Virus record (IMG/VR): IMGVR_UViG_3300022866_000322
Span: 124,001 to 188,000 of that record
Length of the DNA stretch: 64,000 bases
Strand: one strand, 5' to 3'
Source: a virus
The translations under genes were made by a program, and so were the position numbers. Below, one piece after another: positions 5,987-42,869 of the stretch. Position 1 is the first letter of the stretch; each line of letters starts with the position of its first letter. The notes under the pieces are model-generated. The model did not search any database. It was given only the letters and a program-made list of their open reading frames with translations, and was not told where the DNA came from.

Positions 5987-6010
5987 AACTTTTAATATAG
6001 GATAAACACA

Positions 6011-26508: not shown

Positions 26509-27998
26509 GATAGTACTCGAACTCCATATTCAGTTTCGAAACGATCAGCATCTGCACGATCGTTTACCATCGGTTCGCCCCTGATGTTTAAACTTGTATT
26601 AAGCAACATCGGGCAACCTGTTTTCTTATACCATGCTTCTAACAGTTTTCTAAATCCACTGCCGCTATCTGCAGGTACTGTTTGTACTCTACTTGTTCCG
26701 TCAGCATGTAGTATAGCAGGAAACTTGTCACTTGTACACCGTGCTACCACTTGCATGTAATCACTACGTTGCCAACCTTTGGGCATTTCAAAATAGTCAT
26801 GCACATGCTCTGCCAGTATAGCAGGAGCAAATGGCCTAAAGTGTTGTCTACGTTTAATTTCATTTACACGATCCTTTATTTCTTTGCCACGTGGGTCCGC
26901 TAGTAAACTTCTGTTACCCAATGCTCTAGGACCAAACTCTGCTCTGCCACTTGCTACACCTGCTATTTTATTCTTGGCTAATTCTTTTACCAGTGCCTTT
27001 ACAGGATACTCACCAGGTATGTTGTGACCAAGATAAGGATGTTGCCAATTTAGTCTGCCACCATGCACTAGTGCCGCGGCTCCTAAACTACTACCAGCAT
27101 CACCTGGGTTTGGCATAATCCAAAAATTGTCAAAGCAACTACCTAAAAGTCTATTGGCTAAACAGTTAAGTGCAACACCTCCCATGAATACTAAATTTTT
27201 ACTCCAATGAAAGTTTGCCGCATTCCACATAACACTGTTAAGCAATGTTTCTGTAACTGCTTGTATACTACCAGCCATGTCTGCATCGCTAATAACCGAC
27301 AGTTCGTTGCTCAACACACCGTCAAAGCCTGTGTGTAAATTATGTTTTAATTTTATATTAGTAAAGTCTGCTACAAGTTTGTGAGACAACTGATTAGAAT
27401 AATGTCGTACTTTTTCTTTGTCGGCATAAGCGGCCATTCCCATTAGAATATACTCTTCGTCCATTGGGCGTAGTCCTATGTGTGCAGTTGCGGCCGAGTA
27501 CATCAACCCGATACTGTGTGGGTAACGTCTGGTCCAAAGTTTCTTGTACACTGCACGACCATTCTTGTATTCAGCGCCCCATATGGTAATACAATCCAAC
27601 TCACCTATAGCGTCTACTACAACAACTGTTGCACGTTCAAACGGAGATGTTTGAAATCCAGCGGCAGCATGGCTTAAATGATGATTATGTGTGCTAACAG
27701 GAACATCAACAGGACGTCCGATTTGATCGAATATCAATTTATCAACACTGGTTTGCGTCCAGTTGAATCCTTCACCTGATATGAGTCTGCGTATTTGTTT
27801 CAACCAAGGACGCTCATAGTATGCAATATGATCAATACCGTGGCTCATTGCTTCTTGCACAATCCCCTCGCATAGATTGGGATCGTGTTTTTGTTTGCTG
27901 TAGCGTTCGCTATGACTAGCAAACAGTATGTCGCCTGCTGTGTTTATTACACTAGCACCAGCGTCATGAAAACCACTGCTTATTCCTAATATGTTCAT
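26505..27998 (-). CDS. NodU/CmcH/TobZ-type O-carbamoyltransferase
   Basis: The 497-residue protein is a carbamoyltransferase of the NodU/TobZ family. These enzymes use carbamoyl phosphate and ATP to form carbamoyl-adenylate in the YrdC/Kae1-like domains and then move the carbamoyl group to a hydroxyl. Visible features are GISSGFHDAGASV at the start, HNHHLSHAAAGF with metal-binding histidines, FMGGVALNCLANRLL, and a C-terminal region with EFGPRALGNRSLLADPR and LLNTSLNIRGEPMVN. NodU and TobZ act on sugars; phage relatives have been linked to hydroxymethylated pyrimidines in DNA. The nearby glycosyltransferases favour a sugar target. Confidence 0.88.
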   Translation of the reverse strand: MNILGISSGFHDAGASVINTAGDILFASHSERYSKQKHDPNLCEGIVQEAMSHGIDHIAYYERPWLKQIRRLISGEGFNWTQTSVDKLIFDQIGRPVDVPVSTHNHHLSHAAAGFQTSPFERATVVVVDAIGELDCITIWGAEYKNGRAVYKKLWTRRYPHSIGLMYSAATAHIGLRPMDEEYILMGMAAYADKEKVRHYSNQLSHKLVADFTNIKLKHNLHTGFDGVLSNELSVISDADMAGSIQAVTETLLNSVMWNAANFHWSKNLVFMGGVALNCLANRLLGSCFDNFWIMPNPGDAGSSLGAAALVHGGRLNWQHPYLGHNIPGEYPVKALVKELAKNKIAGVASGRAEFGPRALGNRSLLADPRGKEIKDRVNEIKRRQHFRPFAPAILAEHVHDYFEMPKGWQRSDYMQVVARCTSDKFPAILHADGTSRVQTVPADSGSGFRKLLEAWYKKTGCPMLLNTSLNIRGEPMVNDRADADRFETEYGVRVLS

Positions 27999-28599
27999 AA
28001 ATTTTATCTGCTATTCGTTGATGTCCAAGTTCCAATGGATGTCCATTTGGGCCTAACGGACAACCATCCTGCCAATGCGTGAATCCCTCATGAGGCCAAC
28101 CCAAGTAGTGTTCTTTGTCTACTGCATCAGCCATATGCTGTAAACCAATATTCTTATAGTGGTAGTCGTCCCAGTGCCCGTCCATACTAACAAACACATA
28201 CTTTTGTCTACGCTGTTTTAAAAGATCTTGTAGTGCTAATACCTTTGCTAACCAAGTTTGTGTTGCGTGTGCTACATCATAGTGTTCTGCATAATACTGT
28301 TTAATCCACGGGAACCTAGTGTGGTGATGATAACTAGCACTGGTTATTTGTAGCTCTTTTCCTCCGAACATTAAATCAAGTCTTGACGGTTCAGTCCAAG
28401 CGCATATTACTAGTTCATAATTATTTTGTACAACCCGGTCAATAGTAACCCTAAACATCCTATCGTTACTACCCCCAGGTACAGCAAGGTTGTAAACTCC
28501 AAAGTCTAATTCTCTTCCCAATAGATACGGCCATGCGTCTTGTTCACGATTGTCAAGTTCTGCACCGTAGGTAAAACTGTCGCCTATTGTTAAAATCAT
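27964..28599 (-). CDS. SGNH/GDSL-type hydrolase
   Basis: The 211-residue protein begins with the block I serine motif ILTIGDSFTYGAEL and has a block II/III-like VPGGSNDRMFR with the Gly and Asn of the oxyanion hole. A final GHPLELGHQRIADKI supplies a His. These are standard SGNH features, so it is probably an esterase or acyltransfer-type enzyme. It overlaps the carbamoyltransferase gene by 35 bases and is preceded by a 33-residue gene. Confidence 0.75.
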   Translation of the reverse strand: MILTIGDSFTYGAELDNREQDAWPYLLGRELDFGVYNLAVPGGSNDRMFRVTIDRVVQNNYELVICAWTEPSRLDLMFGGKELQITSASYHHHTRFPWIKQYYAEHYDVAHATQTWLAKVLALQDLLKQRRQKYVFVSMDGHWDDYHYKNIGLQHMADAVDKEHYLGWPHEGFTHWQDGCPLGPNGHPLELGHQRIADKIYEHIRNKQWFS

Positions 28600-28697
28600 T
28601 TGTAAATAAAAGGATCTCGTTTTTTAAGTTCTTTGAGCTTTTTACGATAGCGTATTTCTAGGATGATTCTATTCCAAAGGTTCTTTAACCAGTTCAT
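28596..28697 (-). CDS. 33-residue basic protein
   Basis: A 34-codon frame on the minus strand runs from an ATG at 28697, inside the end of the 28669 gene, to a TGA that overlaps the ATG of the SGNH gene at 28599 (ATGA). It encodes MNWLKNLWNRIILEIRYRKK followed by a short LKELKKRDPFIYK end. The product is amphipathic and highly basic. The exact fit between two genes, the coupled ends and the resemblance to short proteins ending RDPFIYK that I recall from marine phages support it as real. The role is unknown; a membrane or nucleic acid association is possible. Confidence 0.7.
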   Translation of the reverse strand: MNWLKNLWNRIILEIRYRKKLKELKKRDPFIYK

Positions 28698-29481
28698 TGA
28701 ACTTGTCCTTCATAAGTTGATAAGCGGCATCGTGCGCTTCTTCTAGTGGATGTGTTTCTCCACTAGGGTATTTATTTTCCATTGCCCACTGGTAAAAACC
28801 TCTTGGGCCTGTTTCACCATCCGGAAACCAAAACCAGTTTTGTTGTCGATCTTTGATCTCCTTGACTAGCATGTTGATGTTATCATCACACATCTTCATT
28901 GATCTGTTACTAGCGTCATGTATCAATTTATTGCACAAGATACTGTTATCTGCACATGTGAACATGTACTTTATTCCGTTTGCAATTAAGTAGTTTTGCA
29001 GATACACTATTTCTTTTAACGATTGGTATGTGTCCCAGTAATCCCCACCTACATGTTTGTAGAAAGTTTCAGCAAAACCTGCCATACCTTTTTGCGTAGC
29101 TCTAGCAATGTGCTCGCTTTGCATTCTTGCTATAGGATTTTCTAATTTGATATCTGCGGTGTGCGGAGTAATAGCGTACCAATTACCTGTGCGTTGCCCT
29201 GTGTCGTAGTTGAATCTAAATTCATACCTGCCAGGGAATGTCCAGTTTACAATAACAAATAAATCACGGACCTGAGTGCCGTGCATGCGGTATACATAAA
29301 CTTCATCAATCACTCTACGTGCAATAGCATCGTTGCCTATACCGGGCCAGGCTGTGCATCTATATGTTTGTTTAATATCATGTGCCAACAATGCAGGAAA
29401 TGTGCTGTGACTATGCGCACGTATGCAGTCTTTTAATTCACTACCGTATACGAAACTATCACCCCCTGCTACTATGTTCAT
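28669..29481 (-). CDS. SGNH/GDSL-type hydrolase
   Basis: This 270-residue protein starts with IVAGGDSFVYGSEL (block I serine), has WPGIGNDAIARR with the oxyanion Gly and Asn, and ends with SGETHPLEEAHDAAY, whose His completes the site. It is the longest of the four SGNH members in the window, with an extra middle segment. It is predicted to be cytoplasmic. It overlaps the gene at 29459 and the 33-residue gene, so all are expressed together. Confidence 0.72.
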   Translation of the reverse strand: MNIVAGGDSFVYGSELKDCIRAHSHSTFPALLAHDIKQTYRCTAWPGIGNDAIARRVIDEVYVYRMHGTQVRDLFVIVNWTFPGRYEFRFNYDTGQRTGNWYAITPHTADIKLENPIARMQSEHIARATQKGMAGFAETFYKHVGGDYWDTYQSLKEIVYLQNYLIANGIKYMFTCADNSILCNKLIHDASNRSMKMCDDNINMLVKEIKDRQQNWFWFPDGETGPRGFYQWAMENKYPSGETHPLEEAHDAAYQLMKDKFNELVKEPLE

Positions 29482-30607
29482 ACCCTGGCCTCATCATGTC
29501 TATTTGCGTTTGTTTGTAGTTATGGTCACCCCAACAATAATCAAACGTATTACTCACGTCTCCAACTTCTATACGGTAAATGTCTAAGTGATTGCTAAGA
29601 TGTTGTAGTATTGCTTGGGGATGACATTGTCCAAAACTTTCTGTCAGCAATACTTGTCCAATTTTTGCATGCCCTAAACTTAACTGTGGATCAGTTGGGT
29701 CCATGCCGTTAAGTTCTAACCAATTAGTAAAGTCATCAATTTCTTTATTGTGCCACTCGTAACCATCAACATAGCGTATTGTTTTACCCCACTCTACATC
29801 AAACTCTCCCGAGTAGTATTGTAAATGAGTAATTGCTTCACATACCGTGTCAGTTAATTCTGGTGCATGCTCATCCCTAAACACTTCCATCAGTGTTTTG
29901 CCAATTTGTGTCCAGTGCATGTATACTCCACCAAACTCTCTGTCGTATCCGTTTGCAATAAAATCTTTCCTATGCTCGTCCGTTAGCTCAAAACGTAATG
30001 CTTGCAAGAATGTTGTAATCTGACTAGGACGTACCCAGTCTGGCACTGTTGCTTGTTTACGTTGACTTAGAATAAGCGTTTCTGATTCGTGACATAAGTT
30101 GTTTAGTTGCCTAATAGCGTATTTGGTTTCAAAATCTGCATGTTTGTAATAAGGACTTAGATTTTCTACAGTGCCTTGCAGTACTTCGAAGTAGTTATGT
30201 AGTCTATTCATTGCACCATGCTTGACCCCAAGGCCCAAGTTGTCACTATCATAGCCAACAGGATATTCATCACCGAATCGGACAGTGTCTGGCGTAAAGT
30301 AATCTTCTATTATGTAAGGTTTAAGTCCCGCTTGCTGCCAAATACCTGTGCGATTAAAAATATTAATACGGTATATCGAATCATTTATTTCGCGACACAG
30401 ATAGGGCAAGTTGCGCGGCGAATGGGGGAAGCCCATAAAGCAATAATTTTTTTCTAATAGTCTGTTGCTTCGTAATTCTACCTGCAATGCACTCGCCCAG
30501 TCCTGCGCCAATTGGGTATCTGTTAATTCTATTGTGTAGTCTAACTGATCTTTTTTGTCTAAAGGATTACGTAGTACTACCTTAACTGATTTGATTCCAC
30601 CACTCAT
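29459..30607 (-). CDS. Protein of unknown function tied to the radical SAM cluster
   Basis: The 382-residue product has no motif that I can name. It contains a distinctive HGAMNRLHNYFEVLQG segment and KYAIRQLNNLCHE, with many histidines and aromatics, and GYDREFGGVYMHWTQIGKT, suggesting an enzyme or metal-binding protein. I recall related sequences in marine phages near radical SAM genes but no assigned function. I start it at the ATG at 30607; this still overlaps the first radical SAM gene by 26 bases. It could be the substrate-binding partner of that set. Confidence 0.65.
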   Translation of the reverse strand: MSGGIKSVKVVLRNPLDKKDQLDYTIELTDTQLAQDWASALQVELRSNRLLEKNYCFMGFPHSPRNLPYLCREINDSIYRINIFNRTGIWQQAGLKPYIIEDYFTPDTVRFGDEYPVGYDSDNLGLGVKHGAMNRLHNYFEVLQGTVENLSPYYKHADFETKYAIRQLNNLCHESETLILSQRKQATVPDWVRPSQITTFLQALRFELTDEHRKDFIANGYDREFGGVYMHWTQIGKTLMEVFRDEHAPELTDTVCEAITHLQYYSGEFDVEWGKTIRYVDGYEWHNKEIDDFTNWLELNGMDPTDPQLSLGHAKIGQVLLTESFGQCHPQAILQHLSNHLDIYRIEVGDVSNTFDYCWGDHNYKQTQIDMMRPGYEHSSRG

Positions 30608-31868
30608 ATACGTCTGGTCTCTTGGACAATATTTCATCCATTGTAGTTGATTGCGTTCTAATACTTTCTAATTGTAACACACGAGCCTTGCCTTTTGCAA
30701 GTCCTTGTTTGTATTCATTTGGCCATTGTTCGTCAAACGTAGGACGTGATTTAAGTTGCTGTAGTACATCATGCATTGCACCATGTGTGTCCGGCAACAG
30801 TTCGTCCACCCATTTATGTAAAATAGATTTTGGTAGTGCTAGTGGACTCAACGCAATATCCGGGCTAAAGCTGAAAACAACTTTAGCCAAGATATCTACA
30901 TTAAGCTCACGTGCTAGTTTGATTATTGGAACGACTTCAAACATACCCGGTAAGGTAAGCGTGAAGTCTATTCTCATTTGTCTTCTATGAGTAGCTGTAC
31001 TAACTCCTCGTTTAAAATTTTCAAGCCACTCCGGATAGTCAAGACCTGTTCTGACATACTCTCCAATTGTGCCTGTACCGTCAATGCTTGCGCATATTTG
31101 CCAGTCGCGAAGCCCAGGTAAAATATCACTGTAAAGATCGCAACCGCGATAAGTGATCCTACTAAGATTAGTGTTGTACCTTGCATAAACATTTTTTCCA
31201 TCTCCCAGTTCAATTATTCTCTGCATGTACTTCCAGTGTTGCTCGTACATGAGAGGTTCACCGCCTACCCAATAGACTTCCTCGACACGGTGGTCCTCTA
31301 CCGCTTGTGCAAACTCTTGTTCAACTTGAGTACTTTGGAAATGTTCAATCTGATTCTTGACCTCGGGGCGCATCCAACTGTTTTTTGGATCGTGCCAATT
31401 GACCATGTCATGCTGTTTTTGCTCAGTTTCCCATGCACTGGACAGCATGTCGCCGCACATACGGCATTTGAAGTTACATAGGTTACTGAATCGATAATCC
31501 CAGGAGATTGGCTCCATGGAGGTGTAACCTGTTTCGTCAGTTGTTTCTACTGCGTGTAAGTACTTATGCCCAAATAAACTGTTAAAATATGAGCGGTAAA
31601 CGTCAGTGTTTAATAACTTGTCATTGCACACTTCACACTCTGGTAACGTTTCTCCTGCCATCATGCGCTTGCGCACACTACGCATGTGTTCACTATTCCA
31701 ATGCTGTTCTAATGTAATAGGTATATAAGTACCAGTACCTGCTTTTGTATCTATGTACTGTTCAAAGTTTTGTGCTGGTTCACGTGATGCACAACATAAA
31801 CGTCTTTCTGTCTGTGGACTCAGATACGTGTGTGTCCACGGTGCCATGCATAATGTTTTTGATTTCAA
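30582..31868 (-). CDS. Twitch-type radical SAM protein 1
   Basis: The 428-residue protein is a radical SAM enzyme with an extra N-terminal cysteine region. The N-terminal ligands are Cys7 in CMAPW, Cys25-Cys26 and Cys78/Cys81 (ECEVC). The 4Fe-4S motif is C131xxxC135xxC138 (NLCNFKCRMCG), followed by SSAW, and the GGEP SAM site is in YWVGGEPLM. It ends SKRPDVYEWWNQIS. It is the last of seven in transcription order. Such proteins with twitch or SPASM-type auxiliary clusters modify peptides, proteins or sugars; no substrate peptide is recognisable nearby. Confidence 0.85.
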   Translation of the reverse strand: MKSKTLCMAPWTHTYLSPQTERRLCCASREPAQNFEQYIDTKAGTGTYIPITLEQHWNSEHMRSVRKRMMAGETLPECEVCNDKLLNTDVYRSYFNSLFGHKYLHAVETTDETGYTSMEPISWDYRFSNLCNFKCRMCGDMLSSAWETEQKQHDMVNWHDPKNSWMRPEVKNQIEHFQSTQVEQEFAQAVEDHRVEEVYWVGGEPLMYEQHWKYMQRIIELGDGKNVYARYNTNLSRITYRGCDLYSDILPGLRDWQICASIDGTGTIGEYVRTGLDYPEWLENFKRGVSTATHRRQMRIDFTLTLPGMFEVVPIIKLARELNVDILAKVVFSFSPDIALSPLALPKSILHKWVDELLPDTHGAMHDVLQQLKSRPTFDEQWPNEYKQGLAKGKARVLQLESIRTQSTTMDEILSKRPDVYEWWNQIS

Positions 31869-33133
31869 TTTTCGGCCATTGGTAAATTAGCTAACTTAAA
31901 ATATTCTTTTAAATCGTCGTACAAATAATGTTTGCTATCATATACATTCATGTCATAAAAAACTTCTTTGTCCCAGGTATCCCAATTCCACATTTTTTGT
32001 ATATTCATCGACAATCCAAACTCTCTACACAGGTTAGCAAATAGAGGTAGATCTTTATAATTACTCTTTTGTACTACAAAGTCAGCAGATAACTTTGTTT
32101 TAAAATTATTTTCTTCTATTAGATCTTTAACAAATTTTACATTTTTTAATAGGTTGTCCCACTGTCCGCCAACTCGTGTTAGTTTATAGGTTTGCTCACA
32201 GCCTGCATCAAAACTTATACGTAACTCTGAGATATAAGGAAGTAACTTCAACACTAAGTCTTTCTTTGCAATAAGGACACTGCCATTTGTGTGTATAATA
32301 TTCTGTATGTTTGTTTTACCACTATCTATTATGTAGTCAAGCAGTTCTAAATAAACGTCACTTATAAATGGCTCGCCGCCAGCCCATCTGATAATTATAG
32401 GTTGGTCCTTGATTTCGTCAATTATCAATTTTTTAATCTTTTCAGATATCGTATCATTAATTGGTCTTATAATGAGATCATTGTTGTAATTTTGATATTC
32501 TACTCTACAACTCGGACACTTAAAATTACAGCTAATATCAAAATCAAAAACTAAATTTTTTGGTATTTGTGTAACACAAAGATTTGAATCATCTTGATCG
32601 TCTAACTCTAAAGGTATTTGATCTTTATCAGTGTACGTTTTTTTGTGCGATGCTGGGTTAGCAGACTGGAAAAACGTACATATACTAGAATTGCAGTAGT
32701 AATATCTATCTTTAAGAATCTCGAATCTAATTTTCTTTGCTTGGTTGCAATTTAATATTTCGTAAATGTTTTTTGAATCCAATACTGTGCCTAAGAAAAT
32801 AGGAATCCAACTTGAGCAAGCACATAAAAAAACATTCCCGTTTTCATTGACTCCCATTGTTTCCCATGGTTCCCTGCACCTGTTTGTTCCAGTATATGAT
32901 TTGTTATAAAAAACTTGATCCTGGCGTGTTTGAATTGATGTTGACAACTCTTCGGTTGACTTAGATGCTATATCTTTATAATGTTCCTCCATTACGCCAA
33001 CAAAATTACTTAATTCATTGTCAATGGTAGGAGAAACACTATAGTTGTCATTAATAAAATCGTCATACTGAGGCCAATCCGCCCCTTTAAATTTTCTGTA
33101 TGATTTACTATCTATTATTTTCTTTAATTCCAT
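31865..33133 (-). CDS. Divergent radical SAM protein 2
   Basis: The 422-residue protein has the cluster motif C202xxxC206xxC209 (ISCNFKCPSC) and WAGGEPF, so it is a radical SAM enzyme. It is the outlier of the seven: it has a 200-residue N-terminal region with Cys86, Cys104, Cys106, Cys147 and Cys152 (RCREPW, FLCACSSW, YYCNSSIC), lacks the SSxW motif, and has a different C-terminus. The N-terminal region resembles a SPASM-like auxiliary-cluster domain placed before the barrel. It overlaps the first gene by four bases, and a 7-base gap separates it from radical SAM 3. Confidence 0.82.
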   Translation of the reverse strand: MELKKIIDSKSYRKFKGADWPQYDDFINDNYSVSPTIDNELSNFVGVMEEHYKDIASKSTEELSTSIQTRQDQVFYNKSYTGTNRCREPWETMGVNENGNVFLCACSSWIPIFLGTVLDSKNIYEILNCNQAKKIRFEILKDRYYYCNSSICTFFQSANPASHKKTYTDKDQIPLELDDQDDSNLCVTQIPKNLVFDFDISCNFKCPSCRVEYQNYNNDLIIRPINDTISEKIKKLIIDEIKDQPIIIRWAGGEPFISDVYLELLDYIIDSGKTNIQNIIHTNGSVLIAKKDLVLKLLPYISELRISFDAGCEQTYKLTRVGGQWDNLLKNVKFVKDLIEENNFKTKLSADFVVQKSNYKDLPLFANLCREFGLSMNIQKMWNWDTWDKEVFYDMNVYDSKHYLYDDLKEYFKLANLPMAEN

Positions 33134-33140
33134 AGTCTTG

Positions 33141-34346
33141 TTAGTACCCCATTGCCTTTGCTATTTCCGGGTGTGTGTCTGAAAAACTTTCTTTACGATA
33201 TCTATCAGTTTGTTGCATCTTAAACACAAACTCTTCGCCGTCAGTTCCTGCACCATTTTCGATAAATTTTACAATGCGCATGATTTCTGCTTTATGTTTG
33301 GGCATGAATTTACCGTTAAGTAACTTCTCCACCACAATACGTTTTGCTACTGGTGTCAATCCATCAATACACATGTGCTTAGGATCGTGTAACATGTTAA
33401 AGTAATGATCATTGAACGTTTGTGTGTTTACCCACTCGCATAGTTCTTCTAAGTAATAAACATTTTGTGCGTTAATGGTCATGCACACTTGTGTGGTAAT
33501 TTTTCTTATGTTGCGATCACGCAGTTTATGAAAACGTCTTATGTTGTCTTCTACTTCGTTCCACTTAGCACCGTAGCGTTCGTATTCAAAACGCTTGCCT
33601 ACGTTGTCGATACTGAATGCAATATCCACACGTTTAAAGTGACTCCATAACTCATACGCATCTGGCCATTGTGTACCGTTTGTGTTGTAGTGTATGTCAA
33701 TGTCTTTGGCGTAGCCTTGATCTACTGCATACTGTAGCAATTCAAAGTGTTCTTTGATCATAAATGGCTCACCGCCAGTGAATTCTAGATACTTGATGTT
33801 GGGTAGTAGTTCACGTAGGTTGTCCCAGAAGGCTTGTGTCTTTCTTGGCCATTGTCCTTGTTGCAAGAACTTGTATGCCAAGTGGCTCTTTTTGTTCTTC
33901 AATTCGGGTATATAATCTATTTCTTCTTGTGCCCATTTACTACTGCTCCAACTTCCGCATATACGACACTTTAGGTTACAAATGTTCCCCAGCTTTAAAT
34001 CCACAAACCATAATTGGTCTGGTTTGTCGTTAGCATAGTCTACTTTGTCAACAAACTCTTTTAGTCGGATCCTACTGTGTATGCGTTTGCTTGCACGGCC
34101 TGCGGCTTCTTCTTGCCAACAGCGTGTGCAGGTCTCTGGTTTCTCACCATTTCTAAATTGTTGCCGTAAGTCTTGCATGTACTTGCTGTTGTATATTGTC
34201 TGCAAATTGTCTTTGTTTAAGTCATACTTTTCGCCTGACTCATCTGTTATTTCGTCTATTGCCAAACAGCAAGGTCTTGCGGATCCAATTGGACTAGCTT
34301 CTATGCTAATCCAAGGTAGCATGCATATTGTTTTAGGAAGTTCCAT
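33141..34346 (-). CDS. Twitch-type radical SAM protein 3
   Basis: The 401-residue radical SAM protein has N-terminal Cys8 in CMLPW, Cys26-Cys27 (RPCCLA) and Cys73/Cys76 (ETCTRCW). The barrel cysteines are C123xxxC127xxC130 (NICNLKCRICG), followed by SSSKW, and the SAM motif is EFTGGEPFM. It ends SFSDTHPEIAKAMGY. It belongs to the CMxPW/CC subgroup with numbers 1 and 4. The end of number 4 overlaps its start by 14 bases. Confidence 0.87.
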   Translation of the reverse strand: MELPKTICMLPWISIEASPIGSARPCCLAIDEITDESGEKYDLNKDNLQTIYNSKYMQDLRQQFRNGEKPETCTRCWQEEAAGRASKRIHSRIRLKEFVDKVDYANDKPDQLWFVDLKLGNICNLKCRICGSWSSSKWAQEEIDYIPELKNKKSHLAYKFLQQGQWPRKTQAFWDNLRELLPNIKYLEFTGGEPFMIKEHFELLQYAVDQGYAKDIDIHYNTNGTQWPDAYELWSHFKRVDIAFSIDNVGKRFEYERYGAKWNEVEDNIRRFHKLRDRNIRKITTQVCMTINAQNVYYLEELCEWVNTQTFNDHYFNMLHDPKHMCIDGLTPVAKRIVVEKLLNGKFMPKHKAEIMRIVKFIENGAGTDGEEFVFKMQQTDRYRKESFSDTHPEIAKAMGY

Positions 34347-35661
34347 TTAGTTCCTTGTACTCAGGGAATGTGTCCCAGAAGTTTTCGTTTCTTATAACAT
34401 CTAATTTTGCAATTTGTTGCTCAAACTCAGGCCACTGCTTGTTGTTATCTTGTCCTTGTAATAAACTCAACACACTCTCATAGCCATTAATGGCACGACG
34501 TAAACTGTCCTGCGGGTCTAACCATGCAATATGTTCTTTGTACTTGGGCGTTATAACATTCTTTTTAAATTCCGTTGTAAATATATCTGGTCTGTACCAG
34601 TCTGGTGACTGACATATATTAATATTCCAGTCTTTTGCTTCAATTAGCCCTAACTCTACCCACTCTTTGTGAAAGTCTGGCACGTGTAGCACGTTCATTG
34701 CACTCACGGTTGCGCTTACATAAAAGTCCACATGCGGTACTTCTTTTAACATGCGTTGTCTGTTCTCAACTGTTTGTTTCCAATCTGTGCCTTTGCGCAT
34801 AAGCTCTGCTCTAGCACCACTAGCATCTAAACTGGCGCCAACACTAACATTCGTAAAATGTTGCCAGTAATCGAATACATGTTTGTTTTTATAACGCATT
34901 TCGCTAAAGTTTGTATTGTACTGTATTCGCACATCTGTCTTACCGTACTCTATTAGTTTGTCTAATAGATAATAATGTTCTTTCATTATAAGTGGTTCGC
35001 CACCTGCAAAATACACCTGCTCTAAATGTGGAATATGCTGTTCCATTTGTTCCAACATACTGTCTTCGTTGCCCGCAGTATACTCTACTCGTGCCATGTC
35101 CCTACCCAGTACATCTGGCTTACGATTATACAGTTTTACATGGTCATTATACCAATTACTGCTAAAGATAGGACCACAACTTCTACAGCTAAAGTTACAC
35201 AGGTTACTGAACCTAACGTCCCAGTAGCGTATTTTAAAATCATCTACAGAACCATCTGCATTAGTCTGCTCTGCTTCTGCTATGTGATGACCGTAGTTTC
35301 TGTTTGAATCGTTGCGCATACTAAATGCACCGTGTTGTTCTTGCTCGTAACACTTGGTACATTCTTTACACTCTTTACCTGCAAGCATATTTGTACGCAT
35401 TGTTTTGTAATCGTCTTGATTCCATACCTCTTCCATAGTATGCTTGCGTAAGTCACCTACAGGATGCCAATAATCACTTAGACAACAAGGATATGCTCTG
35501 CCATCTGGAAATGCATGCATGTGCATCCAGGGCAACATGCAAAACGTTTTGCTGTCCATTAACAAGTCTGTTTGTTTCTCAGTCAAGTCTTCTAGTTCTG
35601 CAAAGTACGGCTTGCGACTCATGTAGTCGTAGCCTTTGTTGTAAAATTTTTTAGAGTCCAT
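34333..35661 (-). CDS. Twitch-type radical SAM protein 4
   Basis: The 442-residue radical SAM protein has a 34-residue N-terminal extension and then Cys41 in CMLPWM, Cys59-Cys60 (YPCCLS) and Cys98/Cys101/Cys104 (ECKECTKC-like, three cysteines). The barrel motif is C155xxxC159xxC162 (NLCNFSCRSCG), followed by IFSSNW; FAGGEPLIM is the SAM site. The C-terminus reads NFWDTFPEYKELNG. An internal ATG could give the usual start, but 35661 overlaps the upstream gene by 11 bases and is favoured. Confidence 0.86.
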   Translation of the reverse strand: MDSKKFYNKGYDYMSRKPYFAELEDLTEKQTDLLMDSKTFCMLPWMHMHAFPDGRAYPCCLSDYWHPVGDLRKHTMEEVWNQDDYKTMRTNMLAGKECKECTKCYEQEQHGAFSMRNDSNRNYGHHIAEAEQTNADGSVDDFKIRYWDVRFSNLCNFSCRSCGPIFSSNWYNDHVKLYNRKPDVLGRDMARVEYTAGNEDSMLEQMEQHIPHLEQVYFAGGEPLIMKEHYYLLDKLIEYGKTDVRIQYNTNFSEMRYKNKHVFDYWQHFTNVSVGASLDASGARAELMRKGTDWKQTVENRQRMLKEVPHVDFYVSATVSAMNVLHVPDFHKEWVELGLIEAKDWNINICQSPDWYRPDIFTTEFKKNVITPKYKEHIAWLDPQDSLRRAINGYESVLSLLQGQDNNKQWPEFEQQIAKLDVIRNENFWDTFPEYKELNGTS

Positions 35662-36994
35662 TGTACCAATCTGCTAGTTCTGGAAAAGTCTCTGTCAAGT
35701 TCTTTCCTCTGCGTTTGTCATACTGTTCGTGAAACTGTTTAAAGTCGTTGTGTAGTTTGGGCATGTCGAATGTGTCTGAATGTGGTGTTTCTACTACATC
35801 CAAGTAATCAATTAATCGTATGATGTGGTTAATCTCATGTTCATGCAACAACTGCCCAATTGGTCGTGCCGTTTGATAATCCAACCATGTGCGTAAACGT
35901 TCTTTGTGTTTAATTCTAATTTCTTCAGGGAACACCAACGGACTTTGGAAACTAGGGAAGCGTAAGATATTAAGTGTAAAACTTACAGCATGTTTACCGT
36001 GTTTTGATTTCCATCCAACTAATAAATCTAAAAAGGCAGTCAGACTTTCCAAACACAATGCATTAATTGTACACATTACATGTAACCCACGCAATTTATT
36101 TCTATGTACTTTTAGTACTTTGTTTATGTTATCACACCACAGTTCCCATTCCAGGCCGTCACGTATATACTCTGCTTGTTTATCCCAACTTTCGTTGCTA
36201 GTATATAGGTCTATAGGTTGGTCTACACTGTCGAACAATCTATCTACATCTATATCCTTACCTAAGTTACTGTTAATCGCCAAGCGTGTTTTACTCTTGC
36301 CTTTGTTTTGTTTAAACCAGTCTATAAGTTTCCAGGTGTAGCCACTCATTAGTGGTTCGCCACCTGTAATGCGTAGTTCGTCTAGCGTTCGGTGTAGGTC
36401 TGATTCCCACCACTTGAAGAACGCCTCAACATAAGGATTTTCCTCGCCGAATTTGTACAACTGCGCACTGTCATGAGCATGGGTAAAATGATTACGCCCG
36501 TCAGAAACAAGCCCAGTATAACTTCCGTTTGATTTGATATCCTTAACCCATGTACTACTAAAAGCAGGGTTGCAATAACTGCAAGCAAATTGACAAGTCC
36601 TATCGAAACTGATTTCCAAAGTTCGTAAGTCCACGTCTCCTGTTGCATCTGATTGATATGCATCGTCTAATTCCTTTATAGTATATATTTTACTTTTATA
36701 CACACGGTCAGAAATGTTATCACGTTTGATATCTTCAATCTTCCAGCAGTACTCACAACCTGGCGGACGTTCTCCTGCCTGCATCTGCGCCCTGTCTTGC
36801 TTCTTTTCGGGCGTGTTGTGTATTGCTTTGGGATTACGCTTAACTTCTTCAATATCAACTTTGTGTGCTGGTGGATGATGACAACTGGTACTCATGCCAC
36901 TACCAAGCCATATAGTAGCGTTATACCATTTTGCTCCACAAAAGCTCGCTGACTTTGTGTCTAATATTTGTTGTTTAAATTCTAAATCATTCAT
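35651..36994 (-). CDS. Radical SAM protein 5 (CxxKW subgroup)
   Basis: The 447-residue protein has the cluster C134xxxC138xxC141 (RTCQFACSYCN) with FSSTW after it, and RITGGEPLM. Its N-terminal set differs from the CC subgroup: Cys19 (FCGAKW), Cys38 followed by two histidines (TSCHHPP) and Cys80/Cys83 (PGCEYCW). A histidine may therefore replace one auxiliary-cluster cysteine. It ends NLTETFPELADWYNGL. It overlaps number 6 by four bases. Confidence 0.85.
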   Translation of the reverse strand: MNDLEFKQQILDTKSASFCGAKWYNATIWLGSGMSTSCHHPPAHKVDIEEVKRNPKAIHNTPEKKQDRAQMQAGERPPGCEYCWKIEDIKRDNISDRVYKSKIYTIKELDDAYQSDATGDVDLRTLEISFDRTCQFACSYCNPAFSSTWVKDIKSNGSYTGLVSDGRNHFTHAHDSAQLYKFGEENPYVEAFFKWWESDLHRTLDELRITGGEPLMSGYTWKLIDWFKQNKGKSKTRLAINSNLGKDIDVDRLFDSVDQPIDLYTSNESWDKQAEYIRDGLEWELWCDNINKVLKVHRNKLRGLHVMCTINALCLESLTAFLDLLVGWKSKHGKHAVSFTLNILRFPSFQSPLVFPEEIRIKHKERLRTWLDYQTARPIGQLLHEHEINHIIRLIDYLDVVETPHSDTFDMPKLHNDFKQFHEQYDKRRGKNLTETFPELADWYNGL

Positions 36995-38253
36995 TTTAAA
37001 TTATATTTTCCAAATTCGGCAACTAGCCAAGGAAAGGTTTTCCTCCAATTTATGTTTCTTCTCAAATCAATATCATTTAAAAAGTGAAACAAACTTGTTA
37101 TTTCCTTGACATTCGGTTCTTTGCTGTTGCTTTGCTTTCTTAATCCATCTAAGTAGTCTTTACTAAGCTGTTCTTCCTCTGTGTCAACAGGCTTTAATGC
37201 CAATGCCTTTTGAAAGTCTTCTTCGAATATGTTTCCGAATATGTCTATTCTTTGATTAGTAGGATCATTTACAGAGTTTTGATACAAGTAAATCTTTCTA
37301 ACCTTAGACCATTCCCTAACTTTTTCAAGTAATATAGGATAAGTTTTTATAGTCATTGGAGTAAGTGTTGAGTTAATAACTAAGTTAATATACTTCTTAG
37401 ACAATATGTACAAAAAGTTTTCTTCCCATTGTTTTAAATCTAACGGAAATCTAACATACTCGGCTTCCGGCCCCCAATTGTCCAAACTTGCTGTAACTTG
37501 AAACCCACCTATTTTTCTTTTTGCTATTAATTTCTCTACTTTACTTATAATTTCAACTAATCTATCTTTCTTAACACTAAGATTGGTAAAAATTTGTAGT
37601 GTAAGTTTCGGACTGGGGTATTGATCAAATATATCCAAACATTCTATAAATTCTTTTTGAAATAAAGGTTCTCCACCTAAAAAGTTAAACTGGCTTAAAT
37701 TATGCCCTTCGTTCTTTAACCAATCGTATACCTTTTGCTTGTTGGCATCGAAGCTATTTGCATTCTTAAAAATTACGCCATGTCTCGAATAACTCCACTT
37801 TTGACTTGTGTATTGCCCGACATGCTTGAAGTTTTCTTCTGCCCACATAGAGCTGAAAAGTTCTGAACAGTATAGACATTTTTGATTACACAAGTTGCTG
37901 AAATAAACTTCCAACACTGTAGGTGTCACACTGGTTGCTATCGGATTGTCCTTGAGTTCAGGGGGAGTTGGGACGCCGGGCATTGCCAGATTTGTTGTTC
38001 TATCGCTCTCGCCTCCTGCTTGTTCTATGTCTCTGCAGTATTCGCATCCTTGGCCAGGCCACTTGCCTTCTAGCATCATTTCCCTTGATTTAACTTTCTC
38101 TTCTGTATTATGAAAATCAAATGTATCTAAATCAAATTCATGTCGGTTGCAACGATGACAACTTGCTGTTTCGCCTAAACTGAGATATATGGTGCTCCAT
38201 CCCCATTTCAGACGGCAAGCAGTTTCTGTTTTTATAGGAAATATTTTATTCAT
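36991..38253 (-). CDS. Radical SAM protein 6 (CxxKW subgroup)
   Basis: The 420-residue protein has C122xxxC126xxC129 (NLCNQKCLYCS) followed by LFSSMW, and FLGGEPLFQ. N-terminal ligands are Cys13 (CRLKW), Cys32/Cys35 (SCHRCN) and Cys70/Cys73 (GQGCEYC), close to numbers 5 and 7. It ends RKTFPWLVAEFGKYN. It is more lysine-rich than its neighbours. Its overlaps of four and eight bases place it between numbers 5 and 7 in the same run. Confidence 0.85.
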   Translation of the reverse strand: MNKIFPIKTETACRLKWGWSTIYLSLGETASCHRCNRHEFDLDTFDFHNTEEKVKSREMMLEGKWPGQGCEYCRDIEQAGGESDRTTNLAMPGVPTPPELKDNPIATSVTPTVLEVYFSNLCNQKCLYCSELFSSMWAEENFKHVGQYTSQKWSYSRHGVIFKNANSFDANKQKVYDWLKNEGHNLSQFNFLGGEPLFQKEFIECLDIFDQYPSPKLTLQIFTNLSVKKDRLVEIISKVEKLIAKRKIGGFQVTASLDNWGPEAEYVRFPLDLKQWEENFLYILSKKYINLVINSTLTPMTIKTYPILLEKVREWSKVRKIYLYQNSVNDPTNQRIDIFGNIFEEDFQKALALKPVDTEEEQLSKDYLDGLRKQSNSKEPNVKEITSLFHFLNDIDLRRNINWRKTFPWLVAEFGKYNLK

Positions 38254-39631
38254 TGTGTGCGTGGTACCTGCATTCTTCCCAAAACTCTTTCATTTGTGGG
38301 AACGTTGCTAAAAAGTTAGTCTTACTACGTTTGTCTTGCTCGTTAAAAAATCTATAAAAGTCTGCACGTTGCATTATAACATACTCTGGTGTTAATTTGC
38401 TACCTTCGCGCATCCAATCTAGAACTCTGTGCATACGTGCTATTTCATAATCTTTAAATCCAACATACATGTTTTCTTCTGTTTCGCGATGTAATTCCAT
38501 CCACTCTATAATGCCCGCTAACCTGTCTGCATACACAGGCGGGAGTATCTGCAAACTTTGCCAAGTTGGCTGGCGCAGTATGGGAGTGTCAAACCAAACA
38601 CGTTGGTATGTATGACTCTGAGTTGCTCGTAAACGCAATATTTCTTGCAATAGATCCTGTAAACCTAATATGTTTAGATTATTCATTGTTATAATAAACG
38701 TTAAACTATTTCGGTACGGAATCTGAGTAAGGAAACTGTCACACCGCTTTATAATCTTCTGATAGTCTGCACCGTATCTGATATAATGTGCATGTTCTGC
38801 TATGCCAGTATCAATACTAACATACTGCATAAAGTGTTCTATGTTGCTGTTACATAGTTTTTCTACATAATTTAAGTATTGGATCCACAACTTTTCATCT
38901 ACACTAAAGTTACTGGTAACATCTATGTGCAGATCAGGCTTGGGAAACGCCAACACATAATCAAACACTTTGAATGTGTTACGATCCATAAGTGGTTCGC
39001 CGCCAGTCATCCTAAAGTGTTTTAGTTTAGGATACAGTTCGGGCCACCATTTCCAAAATGCTTCCACATACGGATTCTCTTCGCGAGCAGGGATAGGTCT
39101 ACGTCTGCCTGCAAAGTGTTCCGGGGCATTGTGTGGTTTGCTGGTTGGGTATGCGCCAAATCTTTTTATTTCGTCAGCCCAAGTACTGCTAAACTGAGGG
39201 CTACAGTAACTACACTTAAGATTACAAGCGTTGTTAAAATTGACTTCCACATAACTCGGTATTTCATCTTCATCGCCAGTGCTCTCCATTATACGGTCAA
39301 AGTGTTCTGCGGCCCAAGGCTCGCCTGAGCGATAATGTCTATCACTAAGGTTACCCATGTCTTCTTGTGTCCAACAATAACTACATTCGTTTGGACGTTC
39401 CTGCTTGATCATTATTTTGCGTTGTTCTTTTTTGTGCTTGGTATTGTGCAGTGCGCTAGGATTATCTTTTAGTTCAGCGGCATCTATTTGGTGCAGTGGC
39501 GGATGATAACAACTGTTGTTCAACCCTGTAGGCAAGTGCAGACTTACCTGTTGCCATTTGGCAAGGCACATTCCGTTTCCAAGTTTGTCACGCATCTGTT
39601 CTGCGCTATTCATAAAAACTGATTTAGCCAT
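38246..39631 (-). CDS. Radical SAM protein 7 (CxxKW subgroup)
   Basis: The 461-residue protein has C136xxxC140xxC143 (NACNLKCSYCS) followed by QFSSTW, and RMTGGEPLM. The N-terminal set is Cys22 (MCLAKW), Cys41 followed by Tyr-His (SCYHPP) and Cys83/Cys86 (ECSYCW). It ends FLATFPQMKEFWEE. It is the first radical SAM gene in transcription order, sharing one base with the glycosyltransferase-like gene upstream. It most resembles number 5, suggesting duplication. Confidence 0.86.
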   Translation of the reverse strand: MAKSVFMNSAEQMRDKLGNGMCLAKWQQVSLHLPTGLNNSCYHPPLHQIDAAELKDNPSALHNTKHKKEQRKIMIKQERPNECSYCWTQEDMGNLSDRHYRSGEPWAAEHFDRIMESTGDEDEIPSYVEVNFNNACNLKCSYCSPQFSSTWADEIKRFGAYPTSKPHNAPEHFAGRRRPIPAREENPYVEAFWKWWPELYPKLKHFRMTGGEPLMDRNTFKVFDYVLAFPKPDLHIDVTSNFSVDEKLWIQYLNYVEKLCNSNIEHFMQYVSIDTGIAEHAHYIRYGADYQKIIKRCDSFLTQIPYRNSLTFIITMNNLNILGLQDLLQEILRLRATQSHTYQRVWFDTPILRQPTWQSLQILPPVYADRLAGIIEWMELHRETEENMYVGFKDYEIARMHRVLDWMREGSKLTPEYVIMQRADFYRFFNEQDKRSKTNFLATFPQMKEFWEECRYHAHNE

Positions 39632-40560
39632 TACCAGCCTTCCTGTTTCCTAATAACACTTATCTCTGTGGTCATTACCTCAGCATTGCGTAGTGTAGCA
39701 CCATAATGATGTTTGAAAAACTTGCTCTGTTGTGCATCTAGTGTAACAATAGGTAAACCTAGCCGTTTTGTGAGTGCTGTTTCTAAATTTGCGTTATGCT
39801 CCATTGGGTCGTTGTCTTTAACTGACTCCCATAACTTTTCTAATTCAGCAAAGTCTTGTACACGCTTGTAAGGCCAGTCTTCTAACATGGTCATGTAAGT
39901 ACCAAGTCGTGCGCCATACATTGCCCACACACCATTCTCAACATCCATGCCTACACTTTGCCAAATACACAAATGATCATAGTTGCGATTGTTTACTTTC
40001 TTTTCAAACTCTACCAGTGTTGGCTTTGCACCACGATCCAAACACATCTTTACACCTTCTCTAAATCCTGCTCGCCATGCTTGCTTGGGTGTGCCGTTTG
40101 GGTATGTTGTACTGTAGCAGTTGTGCATTGCTATGTACTTGGGATCAAAACAAAACTCCACTGCTGTGTCGTCACTGCCATCACTGGCTTCGTGTGTTTG
40201 CATGTTGTTAACAAATGTACGTGACCAAACACTTAGTCCGCCGTTGCCGTAACGTAGTCCATTGATCGTGTTCTTAGCTTTCCAACGGAATGCGCCACCT
40301 TCGAACGCAGGTTCTATTTCCAACTGTAGGTTAAAGAAGTCAGGATCAGGTAAGTTATCACCATCGATCAGCACAAACCATTCTGTGTTGCTCAGAGCGG
40401 CTGCGGCTTTGTGTGCGGCATCTGACCCTTCTACTCCGTCAACACGATCCGCCCAAGGTACCATGTTCTGTATTTGTATCCAGAACTCTTCCTTCTTTGG
40501 TTCGTCATAACTTAGATAGATGCAATCCAAGTCTGCTATGTCAATAATCTGTGTATCCAT
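39631..40560 (-). CDS. Glycosyltransferase-like protein with DGD motif
   Basis: The 309-residue protein has a GT-A-like core: an N-terminal strand LDCIYLSYDEPKKE, then FVLIDGDNLPDPDFF, where the DGD corresponds to the metal-binding DxD of nucleotide-sugar transferases, and RYGNGGLSVWSR. The start is placed at the ATG at 40560, overlapping the upstream stop by 20 bases. It precedes the radical SAM genes, so a sugar made or moved by it could be their substrate. The donor and acceptor are unknown. Confidence 0.68.
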   Translation of the reverse strand: MDTQIIDIADLDCIYLSYDEPKKEEFWIQIQNMVPWADRVDGVEGSDAAHKAAAALSNTEWFVLIDGDNLPDPDFFNLQLEIEPAFEGGAFRWKAKNTINGLRYGNGGLSVWSRTFVNNMQTHEASDGSDDTAVEFCFDPKYIAMHNCYSTTYPNGTPKQAWRAGFREGVKMCLDRGAKPTLVEFEKKVNNRNYDHLCIWQSVGMDVENGVWAMYGARLGTYMTMLEDWPYKRVQDFAELEKLWESVKDNDPMEHNANLETALTKRLGLPIVTLDAQQSKFFKHHYGATLRNAEVMTTEISVIRKQEGW

Positions 40561-40900
40561 AATATTCTGTGTTGTTGTGGGTTTCATCTTGCTCTAACAA
40601 TAAGCCTGCGTGGTTCTTTACTACTTGAAAATCACCTTCACCGTGTACCAATTGTCTTTTATATCCTGGGTTGAACACTTTTACTTTTAGTTCACCATCT
40701 TTTACTCGTGCGTACTTGTGCATGTTTTCGTATTCGTCTTGTTCGACAACAATATAATCACCTTCAAGGTGCGGCTCAGTCATTGACTGGCCTACAATCT
40801 CTCCATTGAGATCATGGTATACTCTGTACTCCTTTACTATTTCTTTAGGAGTACCAACCAGTGCATTAACTTCTGCTAAAAACTTTTCAAGCTCGTTCAT
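40541..40900 (-). CDS. Small hypothetical protein
   Basis: The 119-residue acidic product begins NELEKFLAEVNALVGTPKE and contains YRVYHDLNGEIVGQSMTEP and a beta-rich DYIVVEQDEYENMHKYARV stretch. I recognise no family. The start at 40900 is an ATG overlapping the previous stop, better than a TTG nine bases upstream. It lies between two glycosyltransferase-like genes. Confidence 0.6.
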   Translation of the reverse strand: MNELEKFLAEVNALVGTPKEIVKEYRVYHDLNGEIVGQSMTEPHLEGDYIVVEQDEYENMHKYARVKDGELKVKVFNPGYKRQLVHGEGDFQVVKNHAGLLLEQDETHNNTEYYGYTDY

Positions 40901-41708
40901 ACTGTTCAATAAGTTCTGCTGTGCACCATTCTTTTACATGATAGTGTACAGGGTTAAGTTGATTAATGTTGTTGATCCTGATTACTGGTGGGTCTGTTTC
41001 ACACATAACTGTGTCTGTCCATTTACTTGACCCTGCCCATCCTTGTATGTGTGGTTTCATATGAACAAAGTTGAAGTAATCTAAACTGGGCATTGTGCAA
41101 TTTTCAACGCCATACATCTTAGCGGCAAGTGCGTATATAACATCAGTGCTAGGACGTTCTTCCCTGCAGTTTATCAACACGTTATCTCTAATATGATTAT
41201 AGTGTTTATACAAAGTGCGAGCAAGTTGGAAAAATTCAGTTGCCTCACGTGTAAATCTAAAATACATCATACCATTATAGATGTTTGGCAAGTCGTTGTC
41301 AACCCAGAACTTTCTGTATCCAGTGTCAACAACCACTTGATCCTGAAGATTCCTGCAATGCGTTGCAAGCACAACAGGTTTCAGTCTAAGTGCGTCCCAC
41401 CAGTGATCCACATTGCGTGTGAACAACAAATCCGCTTCTACCTTAATTGTTTCTTTAAAAGGTGAACATGAAAATAGGTCTGGTTCACGTTCCATAGGCC
41501 AGTCAGTCGCATTTACAGTTCTAACATAATCAAACACCAGGCTCTGCTTGTCTGTAATCAACTCTTGTGTAGTTGGGTCCACTGCTACACAATATCGTGC
41601 ATCGGGCATTACTAACTTTATACTAAGTGCTTGCAAGTATGCCATTTTCAAATAGTCTGCACCAATTGCCAGGGTCATGAACCCTTGCTGTTCTTTGTGA
41701 TCAAACAT
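40887..41708 (-). CDS. Glycosyltransferase-like protein (GT8-type)
   Basis: The 273-residue protein resembles GT-A transferases. It has an N-terminal FMTLAIGADYLKMAYLQALS helix-strand, and ETIKVEADLLFTRNVDHWW, where the Glu-Ala-Asp is in the place of the DxD metal motif. NIYNGMMYFRF and MPSLDYFNFVHMKPHIQGW also fit. A start at 41708 is chosen because it overlaps the previous gene by eight bases. The missing first Asp of DxD makes activity uncertain. Confidence 0.6.
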   Translation of the reverse strand: MFDHKEQQGFMTLAIGADYLKMAYLQALSIKLVMPDARYCVAVDPTTQELITDKQSLVFDYVRTVNATDWPMEREPDLFSCSPFKETIKVEADLLFTRNVDHWWDALRLKPVVLATHCRNLQDQVVVDTGYRKFWVDNDLPNIYNGMMYFRFTREATEFFQLARTLYKHYNHIRDNVLINCREERPSTDVIYALAAKMYGVENCTMPSLDYFNFVHMKPHIQGWAGSSKWTDTVMCETDPPVIRINNINQLNPVHYHVKEWCTAELIEQYERA

Positions 41709-42525
41709 CAAGTATTTCCTCAACAAACTCTTCAAACGCATCACTGACTAAAAAGTTCTTGTCCATAATATGTACATTGTGCTTTGGTATGGTGATTGCT
41801 AAATCTTTGAGTCGCACAATAATCTTGTCTTTTAAATTTGTGTCCATGCGCACAACTTCTTGCACCACAGTAAACATCTTCCACGGAATAATGTTCTTAG
41901 ACGTGGAACAATATCCATTTAGTATTGTGTTAGCCATAGCAAACGAATAATCATTGCGATAACTTGTACCGTCTACCATAAACAGGTTTCTGTAATAAGC
42001 CCAGTTGCGCTGTATACGTCCTATTAGATTAAAGAACAGCTCACTGCGTGGGCATTTTCTAAACATTACCACAGTAGCCCACAAGTAAGGCAAACTTACT
42101 TGCCCCATACGTGCTGGCATGGTTTCTGCACTACTGTTGCTGTGTTCCATAACACGATAATCATAGTCCAGTTCCATTAACTTTAATAAACCGTCGTCTA
42201 ACACCAAGTAGTCTGTGTCTATCAGCAGTGTGTTATCGTATGGACTATGTTCGTATGCAGTATAACGACCGTGATTCTTCCACTGCTTTACTTCTTTAGA
42301 TATATGGTCGTTTCTAAAGTTGTTGCCTGTGTAGTTGACACGCACAACATTGTCATAATTATGCTTGGGCTGTGACTCTGTGTCAGTTACTAGCGTGATA
42401 GGCAAGTTGAGATGTTGTTCTACTAACCGTGCAGAAAGGTCTGCGATACGAACATAGTCAACATCAACAGTGTTATGAGCAAAAAATACTACACCTTTAG
42501 ACTCTGCGGAGTCGTCTGAGTTCAT
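41701..42525 (-). CDS. Glycosyltransferase-like protein with DTD motif
   Basis: The 274-residue protein has a clear GT-A pattern: GVVFFAHNTVDVDYVRIAD at the start, TLLIDTDYLVLDDGL with the DxD metal motif, and LPYLWATVVMFRKC and MVDGTSYRNDYSFAMA, which resemble acceptor-site regions of small phage glycosyltransferases. The start at 42525 is preferred over an ATG at 42546; both overlap the previous gene. It is the second gene of the cluster after the promoter. Confidence 0.65.
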   Translation of the reverse strand: MNSDDSAESKGVVFFAHNTVDVDYVRIADLSARLVEQHLNLPITLVTDTESQPKHNYDNVVRVNYTGNNFRNDHISKEVKQWKNHGRYTAYEHSPYDNTLLIDTDYLVLDDGLLKLMELDYDYRVMEHSNSSAETMPARMGQVSLPYLWATVVMFRKCPRSELFFNLIGRIQRNWAYYRNLFMVDGTSYRNDYSFAMANTILNGYCSTSKNIIPWKMFTVVQEVVRMDTNLKDKIIVRLKDLAITIPKHNVHIMDKNFLVSDAFEEFVEEILDV

Positions 42526-42811
42526 TATATTGTTGATGCCAGTCATTCATTACCGCTTGATATCGTTGTTGAGCTAATTCTAAGAATTCTGTTCTGTCTA
42601 CTTTGATTGGATTCTCATATGTGTCTTCTAAATACAGTTCGTCACTGTTCCACGTTGCCACGAATGATATCAGGTCAGGCGTGATCTTAAACAACCCATT
42701 ACCGTATGTCATGTGCAACTCTGTTTGAATGTGTTCTCTTAGTGTGCGTCTGTTGGCTTGATAGTCCGTGGCCTGCTTGATTTCTGCAACTATGTTGTCT
42801 AATTCTGTCAT
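42497..42811 (-). CDS. Conserved small T4-like phage protein
   Basis: The 104-residue protein (MTELDNIVAEIKQATDYQAN, LREHIQTELH, FKITPDLISFVATWNSDELYLEDTY, NDWHQQYNELRRLRRV) resembles, from memory, a widespread small protein of T4-like marine phages. It is the first gene after the promoter embedded in the terminator hairpin at 42822-42869. No clear ribosome binding site is seen in its 23-base leader, so it may be weakly translated. Confidence 0.7.
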   Translation of the reverse strand: MTELDNIVAEIKQATDYQANRRTLREHIQTELHMTYGNGLFKITPDLISFVATWNSDELYLEDTYENPIKVDRTEFLELAQQRYQAVMNDWHQQYNELRRLRRV

Positions 42812-42821
42812 GGTATTATAT

Positions 42822-42861
42822 AAAAAGAATGGATAAGCATATTATACTGCCTATCCATTCT
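42822..42861 (-). terminator. Rho-independent terminator of the structural block
   Basis: On the minus strand AGAATGGATA and TATCCATTCT (arms at 42852-42861 and 42826-42835) form a perfect 10-bp stem with a 16-base loop that can add two G-C pairs. It is followed by a run of five T (42826-42822). It follows the structural gene ending at 42883 and would end its transcription. Confidence 0.7.
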
Positions 42862-42869
42862 GTTGTCAA
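42841..42869 (-). promoter_or_regulatory. Consensus sigma-70 promoter inside the terminator hairpin
   Basis: On the minus strand TTGACA (42869-42864) and TATAAT (42846-42841) are exactly 17 bp apart. The spacer holds the first stem arm of the terminator and the -10 box lies in its loop. The predicted start, near 42834, is inside the second arm, so new transcripts cannot form the full hairpin. It would drive the 22-gene run ending at 24310. Confidence 0.85.

Follow-up and report, generated by a model that had tools for sequence, protein, structure and literature searches.

What does a phage do with seven radical S-adenosylmethionine (SAM) enzymes encoded one after another? The question is raised by a 64,000-nt stretch (the window; bases 124001-188000 of the 221,342-bp virus record IMGVR_UViG_3300022866_000322) from an aquatic, giant, T4-like phage, in which seven minus-strand open reading frames (ORFs) of 401-461 amino acids span positions 30582-39631 and are named r7 to r1 in the order of transcription. 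Our analysis suggests that these genes belong to an early-expressed phage pathway that builds a carbohydrate and tailors it by radical chemistry, most likely on the host surface, and we give this reading a probability of about 0.55.

All seven proteins carry the CxxxCxxC and GGEP motifs and match Pfam Radical_SAM (E 2e-12 to 0.025). The first-pass annotation had described these tandem genes with additional N-terminal cysteines, six of them sharing SSxW after the cluster motif and one divergent; this description is correct, and the divergent protein without SSxW is r2. A Pfam SPASM-type domain lies N-terminal to the Radical_SAM domain in r1-r4. Six proteins (r1, r3, r4, r5, r6 and r7) pass NCBIfam NF033640 (N_Twi_rSAM) with 218-410 bits, the curated cut-off being 170 bits scored over the whole protein; r2, with 92 bits, is related but was not counted as a member. 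In the whole record 13 NF033640-type enzymes were found, seven in the array and six elsewhere, along with one further SPASM-type relative (L075:7058-8050). The motif cysteines expected of the radical SAM superfamily are fully conserved in all orthologs of r1, r3, r4, r5 and r7, and the N-terminal cysteines are strongly conserved, four in r5 and r7 and five to six in r1, r3 and r4, which corresponds to a predicted twitch domain (single auxiliary cluster), where about four cysteines hold one [4Fe-4S] cluster. The sole PDB sequence relative of r4 was BtrN, matched through its auxiliary twitch domain (E 5.6e-5) over about 75 residues, this domain being C-terminal in BtrN and N-terminal in r4. BtrN is a twitch radical SAM dehydrogenase of butirosin biosynthesis that acts on an amino-cyclitol.

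The array is part of a larger unit of 13 genes running from c8 (42811) to c4 (29459) in the order c8, c2a, c2b, c9, c3, r7 to r1 and c4; genes for SGNH proteins and a carbamoyltransferase come next. Overlaps of 4-14 nt occur at five of the six radical SAM junctions and the r2/r3 junction is a 7-nt gap, the only junction in the unit that does not overlap. Seven of the 13 genes are thus radical SAM genes. The same strand carries, upstream of the array, genes for tail-fibre-type proteins and for a phage baseplate wedge protein, with a single ORF of 4719 amino acids (48830-62989) between the tail fibres and the wedge gene.

Comparison with other viral contigs revealed which members of the array are constant. 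An IMG/VR scan with r4 gave 62 loci, and 159 loci were read from scans of viral contigs with c3 and c4; most sequences compared are metagenomic. In a FastTree phylogeny of 263 radical SAM proteins, r1, r3, r4, r5 and r7 each formed one clade (support 98-100), and all three cysteines of the motif, like those of the N-terminal cluster, are invariant within each of these core clades (34-38 sequences). The order r7-r5-r4-r3-r1 is kept in all 115 viral loci that hold all five groups, with c3 before and c4 after. Full-length genes were present in 107 of the 115 loci; because the same contig may recur through the two scans, we give 87, the number distinct at 95% identity, as the count. Median identities among core orthologs range from 48% (r3) to 71% (r1). 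A search for the same gene order in other marine phages had been proposed, and recent duplication with dead catalytic sites had been named as a case that would overturn the idea of a dedicated multi-step modification pathway; the separate, well-supported ortholog clades, invariant cysteines, fixed order and 87 distinct sets exclude that case. The pathway idea is well supported by the same order, the intact sites, the arrangement as one operon, and the gene fusions and bacterial counterparts described below.

The remaining two members, r2 and r6, are variable and optional extras. In other loci the inserts between core members are SPASM or B12-binding radical SAM genes, SGNH proteins and other genes, and each of ten long phage contigs encodes 10-19 NF033640-type genes. 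A family of about 320-420 amino acids without a Pfam match, present at 23097-24356, also recurs in other phages as inserts within their radical SAM arrays. Genes of the unit have hardly any counterparts in 50,697 records of cultured phages: r3, r4, r5, r7, c2, c3, c4, c7 and c8 gave no match there or distant ones alone. Since at least 576 and at least 528 viral contigs encode relatives of c3 and c4, respectively, the unit is common in water.

Bacterial loci were identified by a scan of GTDB genomes, the assemblies being metagenomic. Each phage group has its own sister group in Bdellovibrionota (support 99 for r7, 100 for r5, 97 for r4, 99 for r1 and 92 for r3), and therefore the five groups split before the phage and bacterial copies parted. 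All five occur on one Bacteriovoracaceae chromosome (UBA6144, L088), flanked by obg and lgt, in an order unlike that of the phages: r5, r1, a further radical SAM gene, r4, r3, r7 and r5. The five are thus kept together in two different orders, as would be expected of cooperating enzymes. Seven Bdellovibrionota genomes (G001-G007, those of L086, L088, L158, L102, L130, L132 and L094) encode 9-20 NF033640-type genes each. Bacterial proteins in which an N-terminal-SPASM radical SAM enzyme is joined to TPR or Sel1 repeats were also observed (L085:3444-6776, L087:9092-11251 and L119:11582-13384). Contigs L080-L084 of marine metagenome-assembled genomes plainly carry the phage unit, with the order r7-r5-r4-r1-r3 where complete; together with L136 and L137 they are phage cassette contigs binned into genomes of several phyla and are likely misbinned phage.

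As the substrate, a glycan has more in its favour than a peptide or protein, given two gene fusions, Bacteroidota polysaccharide loci, the fold of c3, the relationship of r4 to BtrN and the nucleotide-sugar enzymes of the phage. Bacteriovoracaceae UBA6261 encodes a 955-aa fusion of a NodU-type carbamoyltransferase with an N-terminal-SPASM radical SAM enzyme, near genes for a DegT aminotransferase and an ABC-2 permease with its ATPase. The other fusion, 654 aa long and encoded on a chromosome contig of Oligoflexia, combines a SPASM radical SAM enzyme with a c3 domain. Three Bacteroidota loci (L106, L107 and L111) each hold three NF033640-type genes and an SGNH-type gene. Two of them add a carbamoyltransferase, and in one or other of these two a UDP-sugar dehydrogenase, an epimerase, PhyH and a Wzt_C ABC ATPase are present. 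The AlphaFold model of c3 (pLDDT 84) matched GT-A enzymes in Foldseek, and 187 of 191 loci with c3 also hold radical SAM genes. UDP-sugar dehydrogenase, epimerases and DegT aminotransferases are encoded by the phage itself. Three glycosyltransferase-like genes, three SGNH hydrolases and a carbamoyltransferase had been claimed near the array; we find one GT-A-fold and two weakly assigned GT8-like glycosyltransferases, the carbamoyltransferase, two SGNH-type proteins detected by Pfam and a weaker third. Carbamoyltransferase is common in cyanophages and is therefore not diagnostic.

Peptides are the substrates of many radical SAM enzymes that have auxiliary clusters, and serial action of the enzymes of the array on a peptide of ribosomal origin or on a protein of the virion, as in ribosomally synthesized and post-translationally modified peptides, with c9 or c7 as example substrates, would fit the small protein c9 encoded within the unit and the B12-binding and SPASM-type radical SAM inserts of some loci. 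However, c9 is missing between c2 and c3 in 20 of 150 loci, the alignment of c9 has no core-peptide pattern, and Pfam revealed no leader-recognition domain among the proteins scanned from the locus. In addition, the four or five cysteines of the auxiliary domain suffice for one cluster only, and the fusion partners are a carbamoyltransferase and a GT-A domain. Peptide or protein modification is improbable in our view, and c9 as a precursor peptide is not supported.

The promoter pattern bears on where the product acts. A perfect TTGACA-N17-TATAAT (12/12) was found between c7 and c8; this consensus is sigma-70-type. A site matching at 10 or more of the 12 positions precedes c8 in 51% of 101 distinct loci (4% in dinucleotide shuffles), while such sites precede c7, c10, c3 and r7 in 3-10%. 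Upstream of the tail-fibre-type gene c10, TATAAATA, the T4-type late motif, occurs in 22% of cases versus 2.4% in shuffles. Indirectly, the pattern points to a unit that is expressed early and independently, next to late tail genes. The unit is probably early and acting in the host cell, because it has its own host-type promoter and the tail-fibre genes upstream have late-type signals. A second perfect sigma-70 consensus (12/12) lies on the minus strand at 41274-41302, inside c2b.

The same glycan chemistry could instead serve the virion, with the sugar placed on a tail fibre or adhesin (c10, c7 or the 4719-aa protein) and altering or protecting host binding. Tail-fibre-type genes stand directly before the unit in nearly all loci, where the series c8-c2-c2-c9-c3-radical SAM follows c10; c8 overlaps the first glycosyltransferase gene, c2a, and stays adjacent to the c2 pair (Table 1), and export machinery would not be required. 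The host-type promoter of c8 and the late-type motif of c10 speak for the host cell rather than the virion as the site of action, and polysaccharide-export loci are found among the bacterial counterparts. We therefore regard the host surface as more likely than the virion as the destination of the glycan, and glycosylation of the virion as possible but rather unlikely.

Some phage radical SAM enzymes are reported to modify DNA bases, and the unit could in principle alter the DNA of the phage. Thymidylate synthase-like and QueD/QueE-like ORFs are nearby and a P-loop kinase-like gene is downstream; against this, bacteria carry the same enzymes on their chromosomes in polysaccharide loci, and neither the carbamoyltransferase nor the SGNH proteins are known to take part in DNA modification. 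DNA hypermodification by the unit is very improbable. The QueD-like and QueE-like genes, recognised by eye at 5996-7700, themselves suggest 7-deazaguanine DNA modification.

In the pathway that we infer, with its carbohydrate substrate, reactions, timing, destination and benefit, c3, c2a and c2b would assemble or transfer sugars from phage- and host-encoded nucleotide sugars. Each of r7, r5, r4, r3 and r1 would cleave SAM and use an auxiliary Fe-S cluster, making successive radical changes at C-H or C-OH positions of the sugar, with oxidation, epimerisation, dehydration or deoxygenation as candidate reactions. The additional radical SAM enzymes, SGNH enzymes and carbamoyltransferase may add variable decorations. 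An A-type Fe-S carrier (PF01521) encoded at L074:8671-9012 (record 68671-69012) could supply clusters to so many radical SAM enzymes. The product would most likely alter the host surface polysaccharide, for example against superinfection, the tail of the phage itself being the second option. A wider proposal is put forward tentatively: an ancient, so far undescribed five-enzyme radical SAM pathway for a new class of radical-tailored glycan would be common, as a set, to Bdellovibrionota and the aquatic giant T4-like phages, and the phage would use it early in infection to recoat its host.

Several results weigh against a radically tailored glycan on the host surface. To our knowledge, no reaction, enzyme activity or product has been assigned to any member of NF033640. 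Each of the two fusions comes from a single metagenome-assembled genome. The GT8 assignment of c2, made from sequence profiles, is weak. Most single bacterial homologues lie outside glycan loci, and no enrichment of glycan genes was found beside them, where only other radical SAM genes recur; the five-group array of L088 has no glycosyltransferase directly beside it; multi-gene bacterial loci, not single homologues, were informative on context. The unit adjoins tail-fibre genes, which fits virion modification equally. The record, which is possibly incomplete, revealed neither a polymerase nor a flippase or ABC exporter, and only two of its proteins have three or more predicted transmembrane segments (a sulfate permease and a protein with four such segments). 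The phage record is thus not a complete polysaccharide (O-antigen or capsule) locus, whereas the bacterial loci have exporter genes, and host machinery would therefore be needed to place a surface glycan.

Table 1. Positions in the window of the unit, its promoter and neighbouring genes
Feature	Position	Strand	Basis
Sigma-70-type promoter TTGACA-N17-TATAAT 5' of c8	42841..42869	-	12/12 match; conserved upstream of c8 across phages
c8, 104 aa, opens unit	42497..42811	-	c8-c2-c2 adjacency in 120/121 loci
c2a, GT8/glycogenin-like	41701..42546	-	Profile vs PDB: glycogenin alone, E 0.16 (as c2b)
c2b, GT8/glycogenin-like	40887..41744	-	Profile vs PDB: glycogenin alone, E 0.16
c9, 122 aa	40541..40909	-	Between c2 and c3 in 130/150 loci; alignment
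c3, GT-A-fold glycosyltransferase-like, directly 5' of array	39631..40587	-	AlphaFold pLDDT 84; Foldseek
r7, twitch radical SAM, core	38246..39631	-	NF033640 306 bits; clade support 99; cysteines invariant
r6, twitch radical SAM, accessory, r5/r7-like	36991..38253	-	NF033640 218 bits; few orthologs
r5, twitch radical SAM, core	35651..36994	-	NF033640 295 bits; clade support 99
r4, twitch radical SAM, core	34333..35661	-	NF033640 410 bits; clade support 98; BtrN-similar auxiliary domain
r3, twitch radical SAM, core	33141..34346	-	NF033640 357 bits; clade support 99
r2, divergent radical SAM, upstream SPASM-type domain, accessory	31865..33133	-	Pfam Radical_SAM and SPASM above cut-off; NF033640 below
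r1, twitch radical SAM, core, TTG start	30582..31868	-	NF033640 300 bits; clade support 100
c4, phage-only protein, directly 3' of array	29459..30637	-	108/111 loci: at most two family genes after r1; phage relatives
c1, SGNH-type, DUF6071-like (weak)	28669..29481	-	Pfam; family profile 244 bits
c1, SGNH-type, DUF6071	27964..28599	-	Pfam
c5, NodU-type carbamoyltransferase	26505..27998	-	Pfam E 5e-52
Protein with c3-like domain at each end	21221..23098	-	Profile matches

The structure model of c4 is fairly confident and gave no fold match in PDB; relatives of c4 occur in uncultured phages and, by fold, in Agrobacterium phage Atu_ph07, and a weak relative lies inside the polysaccharide locus L094 (12543-13433). 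The sulfate permease, which has a STAS domain (L072:13896-15542), and an APS-kinase-like gene (window 25377-25841) point to a possible sulfur or sulfation theme.

The first-pass annotation knew of no described phage system of this form. This stands for the conserved core and its function but not for phages with many radical SAM genes, which have been reported. In the T4-like metagenomic phage TARA_ERS488813_N000010, a gene for an A-type Fe-S carrier accompanies 12 radical SAM genes (PMC5332604), a pairing also found in the phage analysed here, and Aeromonas giant phage 332-Vera has eight radical SAM genes within its tail-gene cluster (PMC12390700); both were compared by their published descriptions, in which neither a conserved core nor orthology, an operon or a function is given. 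In pelagimyophages, tail fibres are followed by GT8-type glycosyltransferases and by radical SAM cassettes in the host-recognition cluster that vary from relative to relative, and modification of host lipopolysaccharide was proposed for the glycosyltransferases (PMC7029224). The unit described here has this layout, with glycosyltransferases and variable modification genes after the tail-fibre-type c10, but radical SAM is merely mentioned for pelagimyophages, and the five-enzyme core, c3, c4 and the bacterial counterparts are not described. In the searchable literature, which mostly leaves out subscription papers, we found no report of the core, its order, bacterial sisters, fusions or promoter, and no published description of the Bdellovibrionota arrays or Bacteroidota loci.

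NF033640 resembles the array in that six of the seven proteins pass its cut-off and in placing the auxiliary domain before the radical SAM domain; it is a sequence family, however, and a set of five members in fixed order, like r2, falls outside it. Alteration of surface sugars by phages is known, but we know of no fixed line of five radical enzymes that does so. If the product is a glycan, the sugar chemistry of the unit would be new, and a large, unassigned family of radical SAM proteins, of which Bdellovibrionota genomes are also full, would gain a function open to testing; the five-gene set is compact enough for direct expression and assay. Among the closest systems are bacterial ones: although their gene order is unlike that of the phages, c2 is absent and c4 absent or weak, the Bdellovibrionota arrays (L088, L086, L102 and L158) and the Bacteroidota loci hold core orthologs or the combination of radical SAM, carbamoyltransferase and SGNH genes.

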